IMG/VR virus record: IMGVR_UViG_3300030001_000064
Span: 1 to 20,155 of that record
Reading direction: 5' to 3' (one strand)
Source: a virus
DNA length: 20,155 bases
In this document: positions 1,307-13,970 of the stretch, piece after piece
Layout: the number at the start of each line of letters is the position of its first letter
Numbering within the stretch: position 1 is the first letter of the stretch
The notes under the pieces: model-generated
The model's database searches: none
The model's input: the letters and a program-made list of their open reading frames with translations, nothing else
What the model was told of the DNA's origin: nothing
Position numbers and translations under genes: made by a program

Positions 1307-1641
1307 GTACAACGTCAAGCGCATGCCTTTTCTATGGATATGTTCGCCCTTATGATGAAGAACAGGGTGAGTATGAAGAGACTTCATGGGATAAGAACTT
1401 CTTGAACGAGTCCCACGGATGTACCATTCATGTATACGGGTTCGATGAAAGGCTCGGCAGTTTCCTCTCCGTCAACGATTCATATAAAGAGGCAAAATGG
1501 GATGATGCCGTTCTCCTTTTGCCTGACAGCCTCTTTGTCAAGGAAGGATGGGACGAACAACTTCAAAACGCCGCGCACTTTTTTGATCTTGACATAACCG
1601 GATTAAACGCGCAATGGCACCTTGTTTGCCTTTACTTCTAG
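1303..1641 (+). CDS. hypothetical protein, last gene before terminator
   Basis: This 112-residue protein starts in an ATGA overlap with the preceding gene. It is a soluble, aromatic-rich, acidic sequence with no motif I recognise. The stop codon lies 14 bases before a strong intrinsic terminator, so it is the last gene of the left operon. Confidence 0.6.
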   Translation: MSTTSSACLFYGYVRPYDEEQGEYEETSWDKNFLNESHGCTIHVYGFDERLGSFLSVNDSYKEAKWDDAVLLLPDSLFVKEGWDEQLQNAAHFFDLDITGLNAQWHLVCLYF

Positions 1642-1654
1642 TTTTTTCAATCTC

Positions 1655-1696
1655 AGCATGATACACTTGTTACAAGCACGTGTATCATGCTTTTTT
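1655..1696 (+). terminator. intrinsic (Rho-independent) terminator
   Basis: AGCATGATACAC (1655-1666) pairs perfectly with GTGTATCATGCT (1680-1691), and the second arm runs into six T (1691-1696). The 13-base loop contains a further CTTGT/ACAAG complement. The orientation terminates + strand transcription. It separates the small-gene block on the left from the packaging genes on the right. Confidence 0.85.
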
Positions 1697-1708
1697 ATGG
1701 GGAAAACG

Positions 1709-1903
1709 ATGAATAGTGACCGAGCGCAAGTTGAACGGATGGTTTCACACCTGCAAAAAAGCAAGTGGGAGCATTATAACGCCTGTTATCAATGCAAATT
1801 TCACTCTTTATGCGGGGTATGGAGAACCTATAGCCGCCTGCATGATAAATGGTCAACGCTCCTCACTGGCATGAGCACGTTACAAGAGAGAGGGATGGAT
1901 TAA
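1709..1903 (+). CDS. small Cys-containing hypothetical protein
   Basis: I place the start at ATG 1709, giving 64 residues, rather than at upstream starts in the same frame that fall inside the terminator stem. A GGGGA run lies just before it; ATG 1697 is an alternative only four codons longer. The centre carries CYQCKFHSLC, a Cys pair plus a third Cys that could help bind a metal, although no complete zinc finger is evident. It is the first gene after the terminator. The stop abuts the next ATG directly. Function is unknown. Confidence 0.55.
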   Translation: MNSDRAQVERMVSHLQKSKWEHYNACYQCKFHSLCGVWRTYSRLHDKWSTLLTGMSTLQERGMD

Positions 1904-2224
1904 ATGATTTTCCTGTTTTTGTGGCGCATTCTCTTCCAAAGACGGTGTACAATCGTGCACCCTAACGGTATTCACTGTCAAAACAGAGCAGAGCGCCGCT
2001 ACACGACGCTGGTGTATGTACCGTCAATCTATCGGAGTGTTGCGCTCCCCATGTGCCTAGAGTGCTTCCTATGCGCTCAGGGTACGATTATCCAGAGGGC
2101 AAGCAAGTATGGCACCACCACGCACAAAAAGAAAACAGAAGATGCGCGACGAAGATGTAAACTACGCGCTTCGTGCTCATATGGCGCTCGAACTACGCAT
2201 AAAAGAGCGTCTCTCGTACGGTGA
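1904..2224 (+). CDS. small hypothetical protein with Cys pair, long overlap with TerS
   Basis: The frame encodes 106 residues starting immediately after the previous stop, with GAGGGATGG upstream. The first 65 residues look like a real small protein: a hydrophobic N-terminus (IFLFLWRILF, possibly a short membrane or amphipathic segment), then Cys and His positions (C15, H19, H24, C25) and MCLECFLC near residue 50. The last 39 residues overlap the terminase small subunit gene by 116 bases and are very basic, as an off-frame translation might be. The stop at 2222-2224 is the first in frame, so the long overlap is real if the gene is translated. Confidence 0.45.
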   Translation: MIFLFLWRILFQRRCTIVHPNGIHCQNRAERRYTTLVYVPSIYRSVALPMCLECFLCAQGTIIQRASKYGTTTHKKKTEDARRRCKLRASCSYGARTTHKRASLVR

Positions 2225-2609
2225 AATCGCACAGCGTTGCGGCTATGCACATGAGAACGTTGTCAAGCAAATAATCAAAAAAGAGATAGAGCGCACGATT
2301 GTTCATGACGTTGAAGAGTTGCGGGCACAAGAGGGCTTGACGTACGATATCCTGCAAGCTGAGTGCATGAAAATGTTTTTTGACTCTTCAAACAAGGGGC
2401 AATTATGGGCACTTGATCGCATTCTGATCATCATGCAGCAACGTGCCAAGCTCTACGGCCTGGACGCGAAAGAAGATCAACAACAGATACAGACGGTCCT
2501 TGTTCGCCAGATACCAGCCGGGTACTTCGGGGCCATTGATTCCATGCCACAAGGACAATTAGCAGAGGCAAAGCAAATGCCCCCGATCATGGAGGAACGT
2601 GAAGATTGA
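2109..2609 (+). CDS. terS: probable terminase small subunit
   Basis: This 166-residue protein has the expected size and position for the DNA-recognition subunit of a phage packaging terminase. A basic N-terminus (PRTKRKQK) precedes a helix-turn-helix-like segment at residues 36-60 (YGEIAQRCGYAHENVVKQII). A central segment near residues 98-120 (LWALDRILIIMQQRAKLYGL) resembles the helix many small terminases carry after the DNA-binding domain. It lies upstream of the large subunit, separated by two small genes. The ATG at 2109 follows a GAGGG ribosome binding site. The assignment rests on motif and context, since small subunits diverge strongly in sequence. Confidence 0.65.
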   Translation: MAPPRTKRKQKMRDEDVNYALRAHMALELRIKERLSYGEIAQRCGYAHENVVKQIIKKEIERTIVHDVEELRAQEGLTYDILQAECMKMFFDSSNKGQLWALDRILIIMQQRAKLYGLDAKEDQQQIQTVLVRQIPAGYFGAIDSMPQGQLAEAKQMPPIMEERED

Positions 2610-2639
2610 CAGACGAGAAAGAAAGGAATAGGGAGGGAT

Positions 2640-3200
2640 ATGAGTACATTCTATGGCGACAACTGGAAGTTTAGTATCATCGGGGACATCTCACCATCAG
2701 GCAACATAATGCCTCGGCCATTTGATATGCAAGCATACATCAAGAGCATAGACGGGGTGAGTGAGTGGCTTGCCTCTCTGCCATTTGACGATGAGAATTA
2801 TGAGTTAAGCGTGGATGTACGGGCTTCAGCACACGATATCACACCAATTGGCAATCAATACAAGCTTAATTCACTGATTATGGCAATCTACAAGGTAAAG
2901 CTCAGACGAATAGTAGGGGGATTAGAAGAGGTATTTTTAGCAACGTTTCACAACGGTCAGAAGTGTGATGAGTCGTATACCGCAACGATTATCCCTAAAC
3001 CTCCCTATCTACCAGTCACTTTTAAAGGGGAGTATGCCGACTTTACCGATGCCTCAAAATGGTCTCTCTCTTTGCCAACTCCAAAGAACGAATTAGAGAA
3101 GTTTCATGAAGAGCTTATCGAGGCCATGCATGAACCGGTTATAGACACACCGGATGATGACGATGAGGAAGAAGACTACTATGATCAGGTATGGAGGTGA
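2640..3200 (+). CDS. hypothetical protein between terminase subunits
   Basis: This 186-residue protein has no recognised domain. A peptide FTDASKWSLS near residue 140 recurs almost identically in the next protein, pointing to a shared module. The C-terminus is very acidic (DTPDDDDEEED). GGGAGGG lies immediately upstream of the ATG and AAAGGA about twelve bases upstream; either could serve as ribosome binding site. The TGA stop lies within the ribosome binding site of the following gene. Its location between the small and large terminase genes suggests a late or packaging-linked operon member, but no function can be given. Confidence 0.6.
   Translation: MSTFYGDNWKFSIIGDISPSGNIMPRPFDMQAYIKSIDGVSEWLASLPFDDENYELSVDVRASAHDITPIGNQYKLNSLIMAIYKVKLRRIVGGLEEVFLATFHNGQKCDESYTATIIPKPPYLPVTFKGEYADFTDASKWSLSLPTPKNELEKFHEELIEAMHEPVIDTPDDDDEEEDYYDQVWR
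3193..3200 (+). promoter_or_regulatory. strong ribosome binding site fixing start at 3206
   Basis: GGAGGTGA matches the consensus anti-Shine-Dalgarno complement and lies five bases before ATG 3206. It overlaps the preceding gene's TGA. This argues for ATG 3206 over the in-frame ATG at 3191, which lies before the site. Confidence 0.8.
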
Positions 3201-3205
3201 TAGAA

Positions 3206-3577
3206 ATGACTGGTGAAAAGTTTATTCATGCCGCCCGGCGCATCATGGATACAACCCTGATGGGGGACTATGATAGTTTCTCGAAAACGCTCTATGAGTT
3301 TGCAGAACACGTACTCAGCGAGGTGGGGTATGCTGATCGGATCGATGAAGTAAGGGACTACAAGCCAGAGACGCCGCCGCAACTCCCACCGTATAGCGGA
3401 TTCGCTATCGTGGGTGAAACAGGGCCGGAATCAGTACATATAGCAGGGAAAGGTGTGAAGGTCTATGTGAATGCATCAGAGTTATCTTCAGCATTCACCG
3501 ATGCCTCAAAGTGGAAGCTTAGTATGGAGCATGTACGCAATTGGAGTGCTGTTATGCATGGAACATGGGTAAAGTAA
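3206..3577 (+). CDS. hypothetical protein with GETGPE motif
   Basis: I choose ATG 3206 because a GGAGGTGA site sits five bases upstream, giving 123 residues. A central stretch, FAIVGETGPESVHIAGKGVK, resembles the short GE-x-GPE motif common near the C-terminus of phage tape measure and other tail-associated proteins. Here it stands in a small protein and no tape measure is in view. A second motif, FTDASKWKLS, repeats one in the preceding gene (19 of 21 bases identical over 3042-3062 versus 3494-3514). The gene ends three bases before the terminase GTG start. Function unknown; the motif similarity is only suggestive. Confidence 0.6.
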   Translation: MTGEKFIHAARRIMDTTLMGDYDSFSKTLYEFAEHVLSEVGYADRIDEVRDYKPETPPQLPPYSGFAIVGETGPESVHIAGKGVKVYVNASELSSAFTDASKWKLSMEHVRNWSAVMHGTWVK

Positions 3578-3580
3578 TAC

Positions 3581-5935
3581 GTGATAGAAGAGGTGATCAC
3601 ACCCCCTGAGCTACGCGGGGCGGCATTAGAACTAGGCAAGTGTACAGACCTAGAGGTCTGTATGGATGGCCCTGCGGGTTGTATAGCAGGTGAAACCAGA
3701 ATATACAACCCGATCACCGGTACACATACGCCGATTAGGGATCTCTATAGAGATAGTATAGCACCAATAGTGCAAACGCTCAGAGGTGCTATACAAGCTG
3801 AGAAACCTTTTATAAAGGGAGTTGCAGATCTCTTTAGAGTGAGAACACGCTCAGGCCGGGAGTGTACTATTACTGGCAACCATCTATTTCTGACACCGGG
3901 CGGGTGGCGCTACGCCTCTTCGTTGCAGATCGGTTTACCCCTTCTTGTATCCGCTTCACCCCTTCATCAGACCATTGAGGCGTCTTACCCCTCAATGTCT
4001 CTGCAAGATGCATGGCATTTGAGCCAAAAAGCTCAAGGTTATCAACATGATTGTTTTGCCTGTCATTATCACGGTGATGCACAACTTCTTGCGGGTCAAG
4101 ATATCGCCCTATCTTTGCCTCTACTACAAGGCGATGCTCACGCACATACCCGTGACGATCCTTATAGGGATGATCGGGGCTTTTTACGAGAATATACCCA
4201 TCCTCATCTACCATACGCCCCCCTTTCCATGCCGGATTATTTTGCATCTTCTGTTCAAAGGGAATATAATCAATGTCATGGTCAACGAGAAACTTCTTTA
4301 CTAACTGATGCTTTGTTCCAATACGACGGGCAATCTCAGATAGAGAAATGCCTTGTTGCGCCCATGCTATCACATTGTCCTGATGTTGATAGCATGCCCC
4401 TCCATGAGCCTTTGTCAGTTCAATACCCCTTCTCTTCAGTAAACCGGTTACGCGACGAGGGGGTAAGCCTAGCTCTTGAGCAGTCAAAACAGTGCTCTTC
4501 GTTCTCTGATACGACTCAAGAATACTCTGTATTTCCTGGTCAGATGCGTGATGATATCCTTTCATTTCATACCTCCAATAGTGATTATACAGCACAATGG
4601 GATACGGTATCAAGTATTGAGTACGTTCGTACTGATGAGTACTATGATCTCCATGTACCGCATGCACACCACTATTTAGCTGAAGGTATGTGGCATCACA
4701 ACACTGGAAAAACGTTCGCGTGCTTATATAAAGTGCATATGATGCTTACGTATTTCCCCGGTACGAAGGCGCTTGTTGCACGCAAAACAAGCGTAGCACT
4801 TGCCTCGACTGCTATCGCAACGTATAAATCGATGATCGATCCCCGTGAGGGCATTACCTTCTTTTCTGGCAACCGCATACGCCCCGCCGCATTTGAATAC
4901 CCCAACGGTTCACAGATGATCCTCACTGGTCTCGATAAGCCTGAGAAGGTGAAGTCACTTGAGATCGACCTTGCCTACATCAATGAAGCAACTGAATGCG
5001 ACTTGCAAGATCTAGAGTTTGTTCGTTCCCGTCTTAGACATGGGAAACTTCCCTATTATCAAGTCATCATGGACGTAAACCCGGAGGGGCCGTCACACTG
5101 GCTTAACTTGCGCATGAATAGCGGAGTGACAAAGCGGCTTGTCTCACGCTTTGAGGATAACCCCCGTTTCTATGACGCTGATGGGCGGCTCACCCCCGAT
5201 GGTGATATGTACATCAATAAGATCCTGGCAGGTTTAACAGGCGTACGCCTCATGCGTCTCTTCTATGGCAAGTGGGTAGGAGCAGAGGGTTCTATTTATG
5301 CCGATACGTGGGATAGACGCCGCAACGTTATCAAGCCATTCCGTATCCCCGCAGATTGGCCCCGCTATCTGGCGGTTGACTTTGGATTTAAACACCCCTT
5401 TGTCTGTCTCTGGATTGCCGTTGATCCTGATGGGCGGCTCATCTTGTACAGAGAGTGGTATAAAACAAACATGATCGTAGAAGATCATGCAAAAGTCATC
5501 AAGCGGCTATCGAGATGGGGACAACCGGGGGGAGAACCACCACCACGGCAGATTATTTGTGACCATGACGCTGAAGATAGAGCCACGCTAGAGCGGCATC
5601 TCGGCATGATGACCACCAAAGCCTATAAGGAAGTGCGCTCAGGTATCCAGGCTGTTCAAGCGCGTTTTCGTGATGCAGGAGACGGACGCGCACGCTTTGA
5701 AGTCTTTGAGAATGCACTGGTTGAACGTGACGCTATTCTCGATGCTGAAAAGAAACCTATCGGCTTCATAGAAGAGGTCGACTCATATGTATGGGCGATG
5801 AATCACGATGGGAGTTATAGAAATGATGAACCCGTAAAAGAGTATGATCATAGCTGTGATCCGGTTCGCTATATTTGCGCACGTTTTGACCGTACGCCCG
5901 GTAAACCGACATATAAGAAGACGATATGGAAATAG
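3581..5935 (+). CDS. terL: terminase large subunit precursor containing an intein
   Basis: The 784-residue precursor becomes a 443-residue large terminase after removal of the intein (residues 34-374). The protein is the ATP-driven packaging motor and headful/end-cutting nuclease. Walker A is split: GPAG at residues 30-33 and TGKT at 375-378. Walker B is IDLAYINEATE at about 462-472. The RNase H-like nuclease half shows D600 (AVDFGF), D661/D663 (ICDHDAED) and D756-H757...D760 (EYDHSCDP). The start is GTG 3581, three bases after the previous stop; GTG 3593 is an in-frame alternative. The spliced length is normal for the family. Removing the intein restores a standard GPAGTGKT P-loop, so ATPase activity should depend on splicing. 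The 3' end overlaps a tiny downstream ORF by ten bases. Confidence 0.93.
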   Translation: MIEEVITPPELRGAALELGKCTDLEVCMDGPAGCIAGETRIYNPITGTHTPIRDLYRDSIAPIVQTLRGAIQAEKPFIKGVADLFRVRTRSGRECTITGNHLFLTPGGWRYASSLQIGLPLLVSASPLHQTIEASYPSMSLQDAWHLSQKAQGYQHDCFACHYHGDAQLLAGQDIALSLPLLQGDAHAHTRDDPYRDDRGFLREYTHPHLPYAPLSMPDYFASSVQREYNQCHGQRETSLLTDALFQYDGQSQIEKCLVAPMLSHCPDVDSMPLHEPLSVQYPFSSVNRLRDEGVSLALEQSKQCSSFSDTTQEYSVFPGQMRDDILSFHTSNSDYTAQWDTVSSIEYVRTDEYYDLHVPHAHHYLAEGMWHHNTGKTFACLYKVHMMLTYFPGTKALVARKTSVALASTAIATYKSMIDPREGITFFSGNRIRPAAFEYPNGSQMILTGLDKPEKVKSLEIDLAYINEATECDLQDLEFVRSRLRHGKLPYYQVIMDVNPEGPSHWLNLRMNSGVTKRLVSRFEDNPRFYDADGRLTPDGDMYINKILAGLTGVRLMRLFYGKWVGAEGSIYADTWDRRRNVIKPFRIPADWPRYLAVDFGFKHPFVCLWIAVDPDGRLILYREWYKTNMIVEDHAKVIKRLSRWGQPGGEPPPRQIICDHDAEDRATLERHLGMMTTKAYKEVRSGIQAVQARFRDAGDGRARFEVFENALVERDAILDAEKKPIGFIEEVDSYVWAMNHDGSYRNDEPVKEYDHSCDPVRYICARFDRTPGKPTYKKTIWK
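3643..3662. repeat. 8-bp hairpin just upstream of the intein insertion site
   Basis: TACAGACC (3643-3650) and GGTCTGTA (3655-3662) form a perfect 8-bp stem with a TAGA loop, extendable by two G-T pairs. It lies in N-extein coding sequence, 17 bases before the first intein codon. It could be an mRNA structure or part of a nuclease recognition region, or it may be fortuitous. Confidence 0.5.
3741..3794. repeat. adjacent palindrome and 10-bp inverted repeat in intein N-terminal part
   Basis: ATCTCTATAGAGAT (3741-3754) is a perfect 14-bp palindrome. Immediately after it, GTATAGCACC (3756-3765) pairs perfectly with GGTGCTATAC (3785-3794) across 19 bases. Both lie downstream of the antisense HNH gene's stop on its transcript and in the intein N-terminal coding region. 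No T-tract follows in either direction, so intrinsic termination is doubtful. Confidence 0.5.
3870..4565 (-). CDS. HNH homing-type endonuclease encoded antisense within the intein
   Basis: The 231-residue protein starts at the ATG at 4565-4563, six bases after GGAGG, and stops at the TAA at 3872-3870. Residues 9-50 and 60-100 look like two helix-turn-helix segments (for example SLSEIARRIGTKHQLVKKFL). Residues 111-186 form an HNH_3-type nuclease domain: NPAWKGG, DGYILVKSPDHP, GYVREHRLVVE, GRYL, then VVHHRDNDRQNNHVDNLELF with H163-H164 and N172/N176, and SNAMH with H186. This arrangement (DNA-binding helices plus HNH) is typical of free-standing phage homing endonucleases. The gene lies wholly inside the terL intein on the other strand, and its last ~27 codons overlap intein block B coding. 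A longer open frame to 4667 lacks a better start. Likely activity is cleavage of intein-less terL; that is inferred. Confidence 0.9.
   Translation of the reverse strand: MKGYHHASDQEIQSILESYQRTKSTVLTAQELGLPPRRVTGLLKRRGIELTKAHGGACYQHQDNVIAWAQQGISLSEIARRIGTKHQLVKKFLVDHDIDYIPFEQKMQNNPAWKGGRMVDEDGYILVKSPDHPYKDRHGYVREHRLVVEAKIGRYLDPQEVVHHRDNDRQNNHVDNLELFGSNAMHLAETLRGKTPQWSDEGVKRIQEGVNRSATKRRSATRPVSEIDGCQ
4572..4576 (-). promoter_or_regulatory. ribosome binding site of the antisense HNH gene
   Basis: On the - strand, GGAGG (4576 down to 4572) precedes ATG 4565 by six bases. It selects this start over the in-frame ATG at 4667. Another ATG at 4570 is out of frame and stops after two codons. The site lies opposite intein residues 331-332. 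Confidence 0.85.
4584..4613 (-). promoter_or_regulatory. predicted sigma-70-type promoter for the HNH gene
   Basis: On the - strand, TTGATA (4613-4608) and a perfect TATAAT (4589-4584) are separated by 18 bases. Transcription would begin near 4579-4576, leaving a very short leader that carries the GGAGG site at or very near its 5' end. The promoter is built into the sense codons for intein residues about 335-345. It is predicted from sequence only; the host sigma factor preferences are unknown. Confidence 0.65.
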
Positions 5936-6006
5936 AAGAGAAGTCACAACCGTTTAAGTGGCAACCGGTTATCCTTGTTGTCAATGGAGAGGATGAAGAT
6001 GAATGA
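5926..6006 (+). CDS. 26-residue coupled ORF
   Basis: A short frame starts at ATG 5926 inside the end of terL (ten-base overlap) and ends at TGA 6004-6006, overlapping the next ATG (ATGA). The peptide begins MEIEEKSQPFKWQP and ends in an acidic NGEDEDE tail. Its placement bridges two genes with overlaps on both sides, as expected for a translated coupling ORF. It is too short for family assignment. Confidence 0.45.
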   Translation: MEIEEKSQPFKWQPVILVVNGEDEDE

Positions 6007-6257
6007 TAAAAGAACGTAATATCATTGTTAAGAAGAAGTTCTATGCGTGCGATACGTGTACAAAAGAAAGCTCTATATTAGATGACTTAGAACCTTCTTT
6101 CTATATCCCGCCTGGATGGGTATTTTTTCATCTTGGATCTACTGTATGGTCGCCCACACGTCATTATTGTAGTCGTGTCTGCTTCAATGAGTATGAGCAA
6201 AAGTACGGAGTAGACTATCACGGATGGTCAAGATATGGGAGGCCAATAGAAGAATGA
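6003..6257 (+). CDS. small zinc-ribbon-like protein (copy 1)
   Basis: This 84-residue protein has a Cys pair CDTC at residues 15-18 and a second pair in YCSRVC near residues 58-62, a plausible four-Cys zinc site. Between them lies PPGWVFFH. The same order (C-x2-C, P-x-GW, then CS-x2-C with aromatic flank) occurs in the gene at 6557, so the two are paralogues. Proteins of this plan are common unassigned small genes in phages. The start overlaps the preceding short ORF (ATGA) and the stop overlaps the next start. Role unknown. Confidence 0.65.
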   Translation: MIKERNIIVKKKFYACDTCTKESSILDDLEPSFYIPPGWVFFHLGSTVWSPTRHYCSRVCFNEYEQKYGVDYHGWSRYGRPIEE

Positions 6258-9059: not shown

Positions 9060-12000
9060 ATGAGTTACGGTAGCAACCCAACAACCACAACGCAGACCGC
9101 GCTTGGCACCAATCAGTTGCCAGTCTCGACGGTCTACACACCAAACACGGCGGCGGGCAACTTGACGCCCCTTGAAGGCGGGCCTGTTACAACTGATAGC
9201 AACAGCAATAAATCAGCCCCGATTTCAACCTATACCAAAGATGGCTCAAATGTCACCATTGGTACAACCACCGACACGGCATATAGCGGGTCAGGGGCCG
9301 GGACAGAAATAGCCATACTCAAAAAGATCGTTGCCCAACTAGCGGCATCGCTTGCAGTCTCGGGTACCGTTACCGCAAACGCGGGTACCAATCTCAATAC
9401 GTCAGCTTTAGCACTTGAAACAGGGGGCAACTTAGCAAGCATTAAAGCCGACGCTGATAGTATTTTATCAGGGATCGGGGCAATAAGCGATGCGGCCTAT
9501 AGCGGTTCTGGGAGCGGGTCTGAGATTGCTATTCTTAAAAAGATTGTTGCCCAATTAGCGGCAACAATCAGCACGTCTATTGCGTCTGCCTTACCGGCTG
9601 GTACCAACGTTATAGGCCACGTGATAGCCGACTCAGGGAGCACTACCGCCGTCACCTCACTACCCGCGCTCCCATCAGGCTCAAACCTTATCGGTAACGT
9701 TGAACTAGTGGACGGGGCGGGTACCAATAAAGCAACTATTTCAGCAGGTGGGGCACTCAAGGTTGATGGATCATCCGTAACACAACCGGTATCTGCTAGT
9801 TCTTTACCACTGCCCACCGGGGCCGCAACCGCCGCAAAGCAACCTGCACTCGGAACGGCGGGCACACCCTCTAGTGATGTGCTTTCAGTACAAGGTATTG
9901 CTAGCATGACCGCTTTGAAGGTTGATGGATCAGCAGTCACTCAGCCGGTAAGCGGCACTGTTATCGTTCAGCAGTCTACGGCTAGTAACCTCAAGGTAGA
10001 CTTATCGGGCACGTCTGCGAACGCAACGGCACTTAAAGTTGATGGGAGCGCGGTGACACAACCGGTAAGCGGCACTGTCTCTGATCAGCATAGCAATGTG
10101 CTTATCGACTATGATAGTGGGGCTGGTACGCAAAACATGACGGTGTTTGGTATCGCTTTACCGGCCTCGGGTGGATCGGTTGCAGGCGGCACTACATCAA
10201 ATCCGCTCAAAGTAGATCCCACGGGCACGACAACGCAACCGGTCAGTGCTACTAGTCTTCCCTTGCCTACCGGCGCTTCCACCTCTGCCAAACAACCGGC
10301 GCTCGGCACAGCCGGATCAGCAAGCTCAGATGTCATCACTGTGCAAGGCATCGCGTCCATGACTGCTCTAAAGGTTGATGGTAGTGCGGTCACTCAGCCG
10401 GTAAGCGGTACTGTCACGGTCACACAAGCAACGGCGGCGAATCTCAAGGTTGACCTCTCAGGCACAAGCGCGAACGCTACGGCCTTGAAGGTGGATGGAT
10501 CGGCAGTCACACAACCCGTATCGGGGACGGTAACAGCGAACGCGGGCACAGGGACGTTTACCGTCTCAGATCAACATTCAAATAACACTACTGACTATGA
10601 TACCGGGGCCGGTACACAGACCATGACGATGTATGGCCTTGCTCTCCCGGCTTCAGGCGGTTCAGTACCGGGCGGCACTGCTACCAACCCGGTACGCGTT
10701 GACACAACTGGTACGACAACACAGCCTGTAAGCGCGGCTAGTTTACCCCTTCCTACCGGCGCTTCTACAAGTGCAAAGCAACCGGCGTTAGGAACGGCTG
10801 GTAGCGCGTCTAGCGATGTGTTAACGGTGCAAGGCATTGCTAGTATGACCGCCTTGAAAGTAGACGGTTCTGCCGTCACACAGCCAGTTTCAGGTACTAT
10901 CACAGTCACACAAAGCACCGCTAGTAACCTCAAGGTTGATCTCTCAGGCACATCCGCAAACGCTACCGCGCTCAATGTAGCTGATCAGCACACAAACATC
11001 ACGACAGACTACGATAGCGGGGCGGGCACGCAAACAATGACCATGTACGGCATCGCTCTCCCGGCCAGTGGTGGAAGTGTTGCGGGCGGTACATCTGCCA
11101 ATCCGATTAAAACAGATCCGACTGGTACCACGACTCAGCCCGTAAGTGCTACGTCCTTACCTCTCCCAACGGGGGCGGCTACATCTGCCAAGCAACCTGC
11201 ACTCGGAACGGCGGGTAGCTCAAGCACAGATGTGCTCTCAATACAAGGGATAGCAAGTGGTACACCAATACCGATCACCGGATCAATCACGGCAACAAAC
11301 CCATCTGTAAGTACCGATGGATCTGCAATCCCTACATCAAGCACACTCATCGGAGCATCAGACGGCACAAACCTACAACAGCTCTTAGTAGAGTCTGCAA
11401 GCAATAGAAACTTGCGCGTAGGGATCTACGGCGGTGCAACAGAGGCAAGCGTAACCGGTTCTAATGCCCTCAAGGTAGACGGGTCTGCGGTCACTCAACC
11501 CGTAAGTGCTGCTAGTCTGCCACTGCCTACGGGAGCTTCCACATCTGCCAAGCAACCAGCTCTAGGTACTGCGGGCACTGCAAGTACCGATGTGCTCTCA
11601 GTACAGGGCATTGCTTCCATGACGGCGCTCAAAGTGGATGGGAGTGCAGTGACACAGCCCGTCTCAGGGACAGTCACGGTCACACAAAGTACAGCCGCAA
11701 ACTTAAAAGTAGACCTCTCAGGAACGGCGGCTAATGCCACGGCTCTAAAGGTAGACGGATCAGCCGTAACACAACCGGTATCAGGCACTATTACGGCTAA
11801 CGCAGGGTCAGGAACGTTCACGGTTTCAGACCAGCATAGCAATAACACCACTGACTACGATACAGGCGCGGGCACGCAAACAATGACCATGTACGGCATC
11901 GCGTTACCTGCAACGGGCGGCTCAGTTGCAGGGGGTACTGCTACCAACCCGGTACGCACTGATCCCACGGGCACAACCGCACAGCCCGTCTCAGGGACGG

Positions 12001-13970
12001 TAGCCGCTACGCAATCGGGCACATGGACAGTACAGCCCGGTAACACGGCCAATACAACTGCATGGAAAGTGGATGGTTCTGCGGTGACGCAACCCGTCTC
12101 AGGGACAGTCACATCCAATATAGGCACAACAAACGGCCTTGCACTTGATACGTCGATTAACGGCGTCATCGTCTCACAAGCAAGCACCACAAGTGGAGAG
12201 AAGGGGCCACTCATTCAGGGGGCCGTGACAACGGCATCACCGACATACACAACCGCGCAAACAAATCCGCTCTCTCTGACAACGGCGGGGGCGCTACGGG
12301 TAGACGCTAGCGCGACCACGCAACCAGTCTCAGGAACGGTAACAGCCAACGCCGGAACAAATATGTCAACCGCCGCGCTTGCTCTTGAGACTGGTGGGAA
12401 TCTTGCCACGCTAGCCGGGGCGGTCACATCGGCAAAGGTGCAATCAAACGTCGCTCAGATCAACGGCGTGGCCCCTCTCATGGGCAACGGTGTATCAGGT
12501 ACAGGTGCGCAACGTGTGACGATTGCAAGCGACTCTACGGGACAAATAGCACTAGCGGCGGGCAGTGCAGTGATCGGCCACGTGATAGCCGACTCAGGAT
12601 CGACAACCGCCGTCACTCAAGCAACCGCTAGCTCACTCAATGCGCAAGTTGTTGGGGCCGTGGCATCTGCCGGAAGCAATGCGGGCAATCCGCTCAAAGT
12701 AGGCGGTGCATTCAATAGCACACAGCCAACGGTGACAAATGCTCAGATTGTTGACGCTCAGATGACCGCTAGAGGTGCACAGATTGTCGCTACCGGAGTC
12801 GATACCTTTAGCGCAACGGTTTCAGGGACCGTCACAGCGAACGCTGGTACTAACCTTAACACATCGGCCCTTGCCCTTGAGACGGGCGGCAACCTCGCTA
12901 CGCTTGCGGGCGCAATATCTTCCACAAAGATGCAAAGCAACCTTGCACAAGTGAACGGCTCAACAACCGTCACCGCCGCAACTGGTGTGCAAAAGGTAGG
13001 CATTGTAGGCAACACGGGGGCAACGGTAGATAGTGGAGTAGGAGCGGGGACAGCCCCTACCAATGCAGTTGTTGGGGGTCTCGTTTACAATAGCGCATCG
13101 CCCGCCCCAACGTCCGGGCAATCAATGGCAATGCAAGCCGATCAAGCAGGAAATATCCGCGTCTTTCAGGGTGTCTCGTTCGCTACCCTTGCTGCATGGA
13201 ACAGTAGCACAACGATTAACACCGTCCAGAACATATTTACCAATAGCGGGGCTGAGAGCGTTATCGTCCAATTGACACAGACAACGACTATAACGGTGGG
13301 TGCTATCACATTTGAAGTAACCTACGACAATACTTCAAACTGGCAGACGATACCAGCGAACGCCGTCTTTGATCCTACGTCAACAACCTTTGCGGCAATC
13401 AGCTTACCCTACACACTGCAAGCAAGCACCAATAAGATTATCGGCCTCAATATGAACGGGGCCACGGGCCTACGTATCAAGCTTTCAACGGCTATCACCG
13501 GGTCAGGTAGTGTGACACCGTTCTATGCGCTACAACCTTATAGCCCCGCCGATACGATAATTGCGCTTTCGCCCACCGCCGCAAACTTTCTTACATCAAC
13601 CAATATCAACCAGATAAGCGGTACGAGCGCCGGAGTAGCCAATCCGCTCTACGTCTCTCAATCTGCTAATACTGGCTATGTGAGTGCGTTTGGCAGTAAC
13701 GCGTCGGCGCTGACCGCAAACACTGATGCAGCATTTAAGTGGGGGGCCGGTGGTACCACGGTGGTCAACCATATCATGCTGCAAAACAATACCGCGCTCA
13801 ATGTATTGTTTGATCTTGATGTAGCAACAAACGCAGGTAGTCCAATATGCTCACCGGGTCAAACATTGTTCTTTGATGTGCAAACAACGGCGCTACACCT
13901 TCAGGCCAACGGCACACCGAACCTCAACGGATCGGGTGCGGCGAACATTGTAATCAGGGCATGGTTGTAG
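9060..13970 (+). CDS. giant repetitive fibre-like structural protein
   Basis: The gene encodes 1636 residues rich in Thr, Ser, Ala, Gly and Val, with almost no Cys. The N-terminal part (to about residue 230) has two copies of AYSGSG-x-G-x-EIAILKKIVAQLAA. Residues about 230-1000 contain long repeats with the recurring VDGSAVTQPVSGT, SLPLPTG...KQPALGTAG, NLKVDLSGTSANATAL and DQHSN...IALPASGGSV. Three TANAGTN...ALALETGGNLA segments occur in the N-terminal and later parts. The last 270 residues are non-repetitive and beta-rich (from SFATLAAWNSS), a likely globular tip or attachment domain. This resembles phage tail or head fibres with beta-helical repeats. The ATG follows the portal stop directly. 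It is larger than all other proteins in view; exact virion position is unknown. Confidence 0.75.
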   Translation: MSYGSNPTTTTQTALGTNQLPVSTVYTPNTAAGNLTPLEGGPVTTDSNSNKSAPISTYTKDGSNVTIGTTTDTAYSGSGAGTEIAILKKIVAQLAASLAVSGTVTANAGTNLNTSALALETGGNLASIKADADSILSGIGAISDAAYSGSGSGSEIAILKKIVAQLAATISTSIASALPAGTNVIGHVIADSGSTTAVTSLPALPSGSNLIGNVELVDGAGTNKATISAGGALKVDGSSVTQPVSASSLPLPTGAATAAKQPALGTAGTPSSDVLSVQGIASMTALKVDGSAVTQPVSGTVIVQQSTASNLKVDLSGTSANATALKVDGSAVTQPVSGTVSDQHSNVLIDYDSGAGTQNMTVFGIALPASGGSVAGGTTSNPLKVDPTGTTTQPVSATSLPLPTGASTSAKQPALGTAGSASSDVITVQGIASMTALKVDGSAVTQPVSGTVTVTQATAANLKVDLSGTSANATALKVDGSAVTQPVSGTVTANAGTGTFTVSDQHSNNTTDYDTGAGTQTMTMYGLALPASGGSVPGGTATNPVRVDTTGTTTQPVSAASLPLPTGASTSAKQPALGTAGSASSDVLTVQGIASMTALKVDGSAVTQPVSGTITVTQSTASNLKVDLSGTSANATALNVADQHTNITTDYDSGAGTQTMTMYGIALPASGGSVAGGTSANPIKTDPTGTTTQPVSATSLPLPTGAATSAKQPALGTAGSSSTDVLSIQGIASGTPIPITGSITATNPSVSTDGSAIPTSSTLIGASDGTNLQQLLVESASNRNLRVGIYGGATEASVTGSNALKVDGSAVTQPVSAASLPLPTGASTSAKQPALGTAGTASTDVLSVQGIASMTALKVDGSAVTQPVSGTVTVTQSTAANLKVDLSGTAANATALKVDGSAVTQPVSGTITANAGSGTFTVSDQHSNNTTDYDTGAGTQTMTMYGIALPATGGSVAGGTATNPVRTDPTGTTAQPVSGTVAATQSGTWTVQPGNTANTTAWKVDGSAVTQPVSGTVTSNIGTTNGLALDTSINGVIVSQASTTSGEKGPLIQGAVTTASPTYTTAQTNPLSLTTAGALRVDASATTQPVSGTVTANAGTNMSTAALALETGGNLATLAGAVTSAKVQSNVAQINGVAPLMGNGVSGTGAQRVTIASDSTGQIALAAGSAVIGHVIADSGSTTAVTQATASSLNAQVVGAVASAGSNAGNPLKVGGAFNSTQPTVTNAQIVDAQMTARGAQIVATGVDTFSATVSGTVTANAGTNLNTSALALETGGNLATLAGAISSTKMQSNLAQVNGSTTVTAATGVQKVGIVGNTGATVDSGVGAGTAPTNAVVGGLVYNSASPAPTSGQSMAMQADQAGNIRVFQGVSFATLAAWNSSTTINTVQNIFTNSGAESVIVQLTQTTTITVGAITFEVTYDNTSNWQTIPANAVFDPTSTTFAAISLPYTLQASTNKIIGLNMNGATGLRIKLSTAITGSGSVTPFYALQPYSPADTIIALSPTAANFLTSTNINQISGTSAGVANPLYVSQSANTGYVSAFGSNASALTANTDAAFKWGAGGTTVVNHIMLQNNTALNVLFDLDVATNAGSPICSPGQTLFFDVQTTALHLQANGTPNLNGSGAANIVIRAWL
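9761..12086 (+). repeat. protein-level tandem repeats with divergent codons
   Basis: Units start at SLPLPTG near 9801, 10254, 10740, 11153 and 11513, so spacing varies from about 360 to 490 bases. The hexapeptide VDGSAV occurs nine times (9921, 10038, 10374, 10491, 10860, 11475, 11634, 11751, 12069), and every copy has a different nucleotide spelling. Four DQH(S/T)N...ALPA segments lie near 10082, 10569, 10984 and 11830. The repeat is therefore strong in protein but weak in DNA. Confidence 0.85.

Follow-up and report, generated by a model that had tools for sequence, protein, structure and literature searches.

An HNH Endonuclease Gene on the Strand Opposite a Terminase Intein: a Putative Mobile Element Recurring in Viral Genomes

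The stretch of viral DNA analyzed here (the window, 20,155 nucleotides, positions 1 to 20,155 of IMG/VR virus record IMGVR_UViG_3300030001_000064) carries a gene for the terminase large subunit (TerL) that is interrupted by an intein. On the opposite strand, within the intein, lies a complete gene for an HNH-type endonuclease. The features of the locus are as follows, with coordinates counted from the first letter of the window.

3581–5935, plus strand: TerL open reading frame (ORF), GTG start, 784 codons plus stop, intein-interrupted; Pfam Terminase_3/Terminase_6N
3581–3679, plus strand: N-extein, 33 residues, C-terminal ...DGPAG
3680–4702, plus strand: intein, 341 residues, C1 to HHN and then T, C34 to N374 of the ORF; Intein_splicing, TIGR01445 and Foldseek
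3680–3961, plus strand: N-terminal half of the Hint splicing domain, residues 1–94, block B T-G-N-H; AlphaFold2 and alignment
3870–4565, minus strand: HNH endonuclease gene, 231 amino acids plus stop, helix-turn-helix-like helices followed by HNH_3
3873–3961, both strands: stretch coding on the minus strand for the C-terminal tail of the HNH protein and on the plus strand for the last part of the N-terminal Hint half, block B included
3962–4582, plus strand: sense-frame centre of the intein, residues 95–301, probably filler; confidence score below 50
4026–4136, minus strand: HNH_3 Pfam match, residues 144–180 of the 231-residue product
4572–4576, minus strand: Shine-Dalgarno-like GGAGG, 6 nucleotides ahead of the HNH ATG
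4583–4702, plus strand: C-terminal half of the Hint domain, residues 302–341; AlphaFold2 and alignment
4584–4589, minus strand: −10-like TATAAT of a putative antisense promoter
4608–4613, minus strand: −35-like TTGATA, 18-nucleotide spacer to TATAAT
4703–5932, plus strand: C-extein, first residues TGKT of Walker A

An earlier inspection of the letters alone (the sequence-only reading) had proposed both a 341-residue insertion in the TerL P-loop with intein motifs at its two ends and a complete 231-residue HNH gene on the opposite strand, and profile searches bear out the two proposals. The plus-strand product matched Pfam Intein_splicing (3.5e-10), Terminase_3 (2.7e-9) and Terminase_6N (2.8e-6), as well as TIGR01445, which describes the intein N-terminal region (5e-7), and, under its curated cut-off, TIGR01547 (phage_term_2). 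The intein borders interrupt the Walker A motif as GPAG/TGKT, a continuous P-loop in intein-free relatives. On the minus strand the frame at 3870–4667 is open from a GTG codon (265 amino acids), and the ATG at 4565 gives the 231-residue product. Lack of HNH homology on this strand would have counted against the proposal; the match to HNH_3 is strong (1.6e-9) and lies above the cut-off.

The intein was modeled with AlphaFold2 on an alignment that held 12 sequences. Block means of the predicted local distance difference test (pLDDT) were 90–97 across residues 1–90 and 71–97 in the C-terminal half, and Foldseek matched the model to the solved Mtu RecA and Ssp DnaB mini-inteins (best E value 2.2e-7). 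The comparison of the intein ends with Hint domains that the sequence-only reading had called for thus came out positive, with both ends of one in-frame insertion forming a Hint fold. Cys at position 1, TGNH in block B, and HHN followed by T are all present. Residues 95–301 had pLDDT values below 50 and no Pfam match of their own, and this model suggests that the sense centre, about 207 residues long, is probably filler between the Hint halves.

The minus-strand product was modeled as several N-terminal helices and a C-terminal HNH domain, with a mean pLDDT of 84.5. Its N-terminal part gave weak helix-turn-helix matches, with HTH_38 under its cut-off, so that a His-Asn-His motif is joined to a putative DNA-binding domain, as in HNH homing endonucleases. 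The first match to a solved structure in the PDB was such an enzyme, the intron-encoded I-HmuI (1u3e), in a partial and weak alignment (probability 0.99 but E value 0.078, 97 columns). No fold match in the PDB reached E ≤ 0.001, and no sequence relatives were found there up to E 1.

The sequence-only reading had suggested a survey of intein-bearing genes for long antisense HNH ORFs. Viral contigs were scanned from both sides. A first HNH-side scan used an HNH alignment and yielded 445 relatives, of which the best 80 were taken, and a scan of genomes contributed three loci; a second HNH-side scan took the best 80 of at least 554, of which 78 were new. The search peptides lay in the HNH core (E143-H144-R145 and, in the second scan, also H163-H164). 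By profile classification the full arrangement was present in 77 of the 80 loci from the first scan and in 76 of the 78 new ones from the second. Five loci were exceptions: L039 and L057 lie at contig edges with an open frame, L238 lies at a contig edge without intein halves, and L053 (also at a contig edge) and L247 have a closed sense frame. When the Hint N-terminal region was searched instead, with a single peptide from the extreme N-terminus of the intein that lies outside the HNH overlap, all 19 loci found had an antisense HNH gene, five of them being copies of the window's. Over all sets, in which some contigs recur between scans, 164 antisense loci were collected; at HNH identity thresholds of 95% and 60% they fall into 100 and 65 clusters, respectively. 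Both intein halves stand in one open frame in 160 of them, L039, L057, L053 and L247 being the remainder. H164, N176 and H186 were kept in 164/164, and the HNH profile match was split over two ORFs in none.

A set of 91 loci (L001, L002 and L013–L101) was considered more closely. A long frame ran antisense to the HNH gene in 87, reducing to 55 distinct loci at 95%. Among these 55, Pfam matches were to Intein_splicing (43), Terminase_6N (31), Terminase_3 (15), helicase domains (2) and a domain of the DNA polymerase III delta/AAA type (1), and [STC]GK[ST] of Walker A directly followed the intein end in 44. The hosts of the inteins differ, and include TerL, SNF2-type helicases and AAA ATPases. 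The same arrangement was seen in the named phages PHS3 of Pseudoalteromonas and Taid, Amona and Setonix of Pectobacterium/Dickeya, the latter being the three examined among eight Pectobacterium/Dickeya records with the HNH gene. Identity to the window's TerL-intein ORF is 20–29% for those of PHS3 and Taid. As a control, seven named-phage loci found via their inteins, from 7 of 21 records (CcrColossus, KLEB27-3, SAC12B, MT835601, PaV-LD, the Ymer helicase region and vir335), were searched on either strand and gave no HNH-profile match, which argues that the antisense gene is neither general to phage inteins nor a profile artefact. Judged by these sequences, the arrangement is a widespread class and not a one-off.

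Residues associated with splicing were largely kept across the 55 distinct loci. C1 was found in 53/53 with a letter at that position (two had gaps), the block B His in 55/55 and the last Asn in 54/55. The first residue of block B was T in 32, S in 16, A in 5 and P in 2, and the residue following the intein was S in 38, T in 14, C in 2 and P in 1. The penultimate residue was other than His in 10/55; non-His residues occur at this position in working inteins.

We asked which of the two frames selection acts on. The phase of the overlap was identical in 55/55 loci, with HNH codon position 1 opposite sense position 1, the HNH wobble position opposite sense position 2, and HNH position 2 opposite sense position 3. 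Given this phase, a constrained HNH protein and a free sense frame should place substitutions at sense position 2. Twelve pairs were hand-picked for different clades out of 172 examined, and are not all independent. Within the overlap, sense position 2 exceeded position 3 in 12/12 (one-sided p<0.05 in 10). In the rest of the frame, position 3 led in 12/12; the totals for positions 1/2/3 were 416/833/389 inside and 2026/1557/3751 outside. In a separate test, the window's HNH gene was recoded with synonymous codons sampled at random from the remainder of the terL frame. This introduced 7.6 sense-frame stops on average, and none of 2000 recodings stayed open. Across 54 loci (L037, with a stop inside the matched stretch, was dropped), the average was 4.7 sense stops and the share of open recodings ranged from 0 to 8.2% by locus. 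Taken together, the recoding and substitution results argue that both frames are maintained, one as a protein and the other mainly as an open frame. The sequence-only reading would have been undone by relatives with a broken minus frame and a conserved sense domain; instead, the relatives examined keep both frames, and substitutions in the shared part follow the HNH wobble position and not that of the sense frame.

Selection for a hydrophilic sense centre was not supported, since 32 of 54 loci were more hydrophilic than their open recodings (p = 0.22), and hydrophobic residues were slightly commoner than in open recodings (0.227 vs. 0.203, p = 0.003). Dual coding may slow change; it does not freeze the sequence, as L080 and L092 have 58 differing sites across 99 codons of overlap.

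Expression-like signals were sought on the HNH strand by taking, at each locus, the start with the best Shine-Dalgarno (SD) match. A match of at least 4 was found in 27/54 loci, and in 25 the start so chosen lies 98–158 nucleotides ahead of the intein C-terminal end. Matches of 5 or 6 were found in 15/54 loci, as compared with 4.3% in shuffled upstream sequence and, counted per start and not per locus, 0.7% of 443 internal in-frame starts. The promoter test covered 25 loci, all those with an SD match of at least 4 except L044 and L062, whose start positions are atypical. At 7/25 loci a sigma-70-like site matched at 11 or more of the 12 positions, three of the sites being perfect (12/12). Synonymous recodings that keep the Hint peptide gave an expectation of 0.27, and none of 300 such sets had more than 3; dinucleotide shuffles gave 0.0.

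The insertion site was then viewed from the TerL side by scanning with the C-extein and taking the best 80 of at least 583 relatives. Eight had an antisense-HNH intein (four distinct ones, known from the HNH side), 69 had no insert, L116 had no insert but an HNH match, and two lay at contig edges. GPAG/TGKT or a close variant was uninterrupted in 70 of the 80, which represent intein-free alleles, and no other kind of intein was found at the site among these best 80. In L116, weak same-strand HNH matches at 2363–2677, directly upstream of the intein-free terL, are perhaps a free-standing relative.

Divergence along the gene was compared in 14 hand-picked pairs. For L080/L081, nine consecutive 30-codon bins of the intein were without substitution, while bins of the C-terminal extein differed at 4–21% of sites. 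A like contrast between a low-divergence intein and diverged surroundings was seen for L061/L062, L067/L069, L068/L073 (in which the upstream part is identical as well), L087/L092 and L061/L075, making six pairs in all; L033/L035 showed none, and the other seven were near-identical or intermediate. On sequence grounds, low-divergence inteins together with empty sites fit recent homing.

We propose, with a probability of about 0.86, that the element is a mobile intein with its homing endonuclease gene on the opposite strand, one strand serving splicing and the other homing. This composite of splicing and homing was the central suggestion of the sequence-only reading, and it fits the HNH homology, the retention of both frames and the substitutions at the HNH wobble position. 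What the sequences themselves provide is the two frames, their conservation, the empty site, and the expression-like and recent-transfer-like patterns; splicing activity, expression, DNA cutting and target choice we infer. On the plus strand, the whole TerL-intein frame would be translated, and the Hint domain formed from the ends of the insert would splice it out and restore the Walker A motif. On the minus strand, a second gene, equipped with its own promoter-like and SD-like signals, would yield the 231-residue endonuclease, in which an HNH domain follows a DNA-binding N-terminal part. This enzyme would cut terL genes that lack the intein, at the Walker A codons or close to them, and repair would then copy the whole insert.

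Several observations weigh against this proposal. The low pLDDT of the sense centre comes from a 12-sequence alignment and is no proof of disorder. The invariance of the HNH core is partly built in because the search peptides lie in it, N176 and H186 being outside those peptides. No SD match of 4 or more was found in 27/54 loci, and the strong promoter-like sites are not independent, as six of the seven belong to the window and its closest relatives. Taken alone, the window's site, TTGATA-18-TATAAT, is within chance (2 found vs. 2.9 expected), and 6.7% of recodings reach its score. Finally, in a test on 45 of the 55 loci (the 10 omitted were chiefly short, cut or atypically aligned), HNH and Hint similarity were uncorrelated beyond extein similarity (partial correlation 0.057, reached by 256/999 permutations), while that of HNH with extein similarity given Hint was 0.179. 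Long co-inheritance of HNH gene and intein as one unit is therefore not supported, and HNH genes may have been exchanged between inteins.

This last result also speaks for an alternative in which the HNH gene is real but is not this intein's homing enzyme, being for example a packaging-associated HNH protein or another resident nuclease. Free-standing relatives exist (L016 in MW202481 and L017 in phage phiH), and HNH proteins are said to be tied to phage packaging, the subject of a title cited in PMC10448857. We nevertheless regard this alternative, the strongest of those considered, as unlikely, given the tight tie of the gene to inteins in TerL, SNF2-type helicases and AAA ATPases, its sporadic presence at one exact site, and a transfer footprint that covers the intein.

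It is less probable still that the insertion is decaying, with splicing lost and terL defective. The 10 of 55 inteins with a penultimate residue other than His could be read in this way; the conservation of Cys1, the block B His and the last Asn speaks against it, as do near-identical inteins in diverged genes and a frame that stays open when 4.7 stops are expected on average.

A further reading takes the minus-strand ORF as a by-product that is open by chance and the sense centre as a real intein domain. Where two frames are open, one could indeed shadow the other. Here, however, it is the minus product that has significant HNH_3 homology and a confident model, while the sense centre lacks both a Pfam match and a pLDDT above 50; substitutions respect the HNH frame, and SD-like and promoter-like signals at its starts exceed expectation. 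From this sequence evidence, the minus-strand ORF is not a chance ORF, and we give the reading very little credence. An RNA intron of the group I type carrying an endonuclease gene is the least credible of all and was rejected. The sequence-only reading notes that some group I introns carry an endonuclease gene in antisense; the locus, however, has a Hint domain and a frame open throughout, and no Rfam match was found up to E 1 in 3400–5000.

Variants of the arrangement were also encountered. In L247 (IMGVR_UViG_3300049489_001113, 1823–3829) each intein half has its own ORF, the HNH gene runs antisense in the space between the two, and the C-half, which has an ATG of its own, leads into an AAA ATPase (Pfam AAA, 2.8e-26). 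In L053 (IMGVR_UViG_3300012894_000085, 2–773) the N-half stops soon after block B, the antisense HNH gene lies beyond, and the contig edge removes any C-half. By their sequences, the two look like split inteins that may have arisen within the antisense-HNH family.

Same-strand overlaps were seen at two loci. L018 (LR756508.1 298384–303569, at 1480–3834) has a DNA methylase ORF with an intein-like insert, recognized by eye and without a Pfam intein match. An HNH_3 frame (8.1e-9, at 1853–2740) overlaps the middle of the insert on the same strand in another phase, and no relatives of this HNH were found in viral contigs. In L194 (IMGVR_UViG_3300032162_000171), a terL with an antisense-HNH intein is accompanied by a second Hint start (5508–6254, plus strand; PT-HINT, 1.1e-8) that is overlapped, in a different frame of that strand, by an HNH_3 ORF (2.1e-14); the C-terminal end of this second intein was not seen in the stretch examined. 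Ahead of a DNA helicase, Pectobacterium phage Ymer (OP748252.2; L206, 1844–5059) carries two intein halves, each on its own ORF, and between them a same-strand gene with the annotation LAGLIDADG homing endonuclease; the HNH homologue lies elsewhere in its genome. The terL ORF of L083 (161–3925) carries, in addition to its antisense-HNH intein, a weak downstream LAGLIDADG_3 match that is perhaps a second, conventional intein, and in L199 (2695–6270) a single ORF shows a second pair of matches to the N- and C-regions of inteins. Elsewhere in the window, a 1636-amino-acid ORF directly after the portal gene (9060–13970) had no PHROGs match at E 0.001.

The arrangement resembles several known systems and differs from each. 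The sense polypeptide of classic large inteins includes the endonuclease, whereas the nuclease of the window is a separate minus-strand protein and the sense centre is filler-like. Split inteins with a free-standing endonuclease gene between their halves, the "fractured genes" reportedly described by Dassa in 2009, share the separate nuclease gene; L247 is similar, with the HNH gene antisense. The window's intein, in contrast, is one continuous frame (ORF 3581–5935) that overlaps the nuclease gene.

Closer in their host gene are the TerL inteins of mycobacteriophages, which, in the account in PMC5050341, have in common with the present one a Hint splicing domain, insertion in the TerL ATPase domain and a scattered distribution; "antisense," "opposite," "complementary strand" and "minus strand" are absent as terms from its main text. 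The nearest published case found is the ShiLan domain, described in PMC11855218 as an out-of-frame HNH in a phage methylase without a splicing domain. As in the window, the HNH is in another frame than its host gene, the host frame is open, and the HNH frame is predicted to be structured while the host-frame product is not. The nuclease of the window differs in being antisense and inside a Hint intein, and part of the antisense class has promoter-like and SD-like signals; "antisense" and "opposite strand" are absent from the main text of PMC11855218. Another out-of-frame-HNH methylase is mentioned in PMC12613952. The sequence-only reading had known of no standard description of the arrangement, and we likewise found no homing endonuclease gene antisense inside an intein in the open-access PMC literature searched, which leaves most subscription papers and bioRxiv uncovered.

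A broader proposal is held more tentatively, at somewhat short of even odds. These elements would form a distinct and widespread class of mobile inteins with splicing and homing on opposite strands, in which the filler is open only through avoidance of stops and the nuclease promoter lies inside the region coding for the C-terminal Hint half. The class would be a natural source of split inteins, as in L247: a stop and a new start in the filler would turn the halves into separate genes. The same-strand cases L018 and L194 would suggest that a nuclease hidden in another frame of an intein arose more than once.

In the named records examined, the arrangement has been missed by annotation. The record of PHS3 annotates the HNH gene and shortens TerL to its C-terminal part, those of Taid and Amona give the whole TerL as a "hypothetical protein" and leave the HNH gene unannotated, and that of Setonix carries no annotation. 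Long antisense dual coding would be another way to pair splicing with homing. An antisense gene could allow the nuclease to be produced when TerL is not made, and the arrangement suggests a way, open to experiment, in which split inteins could originate.

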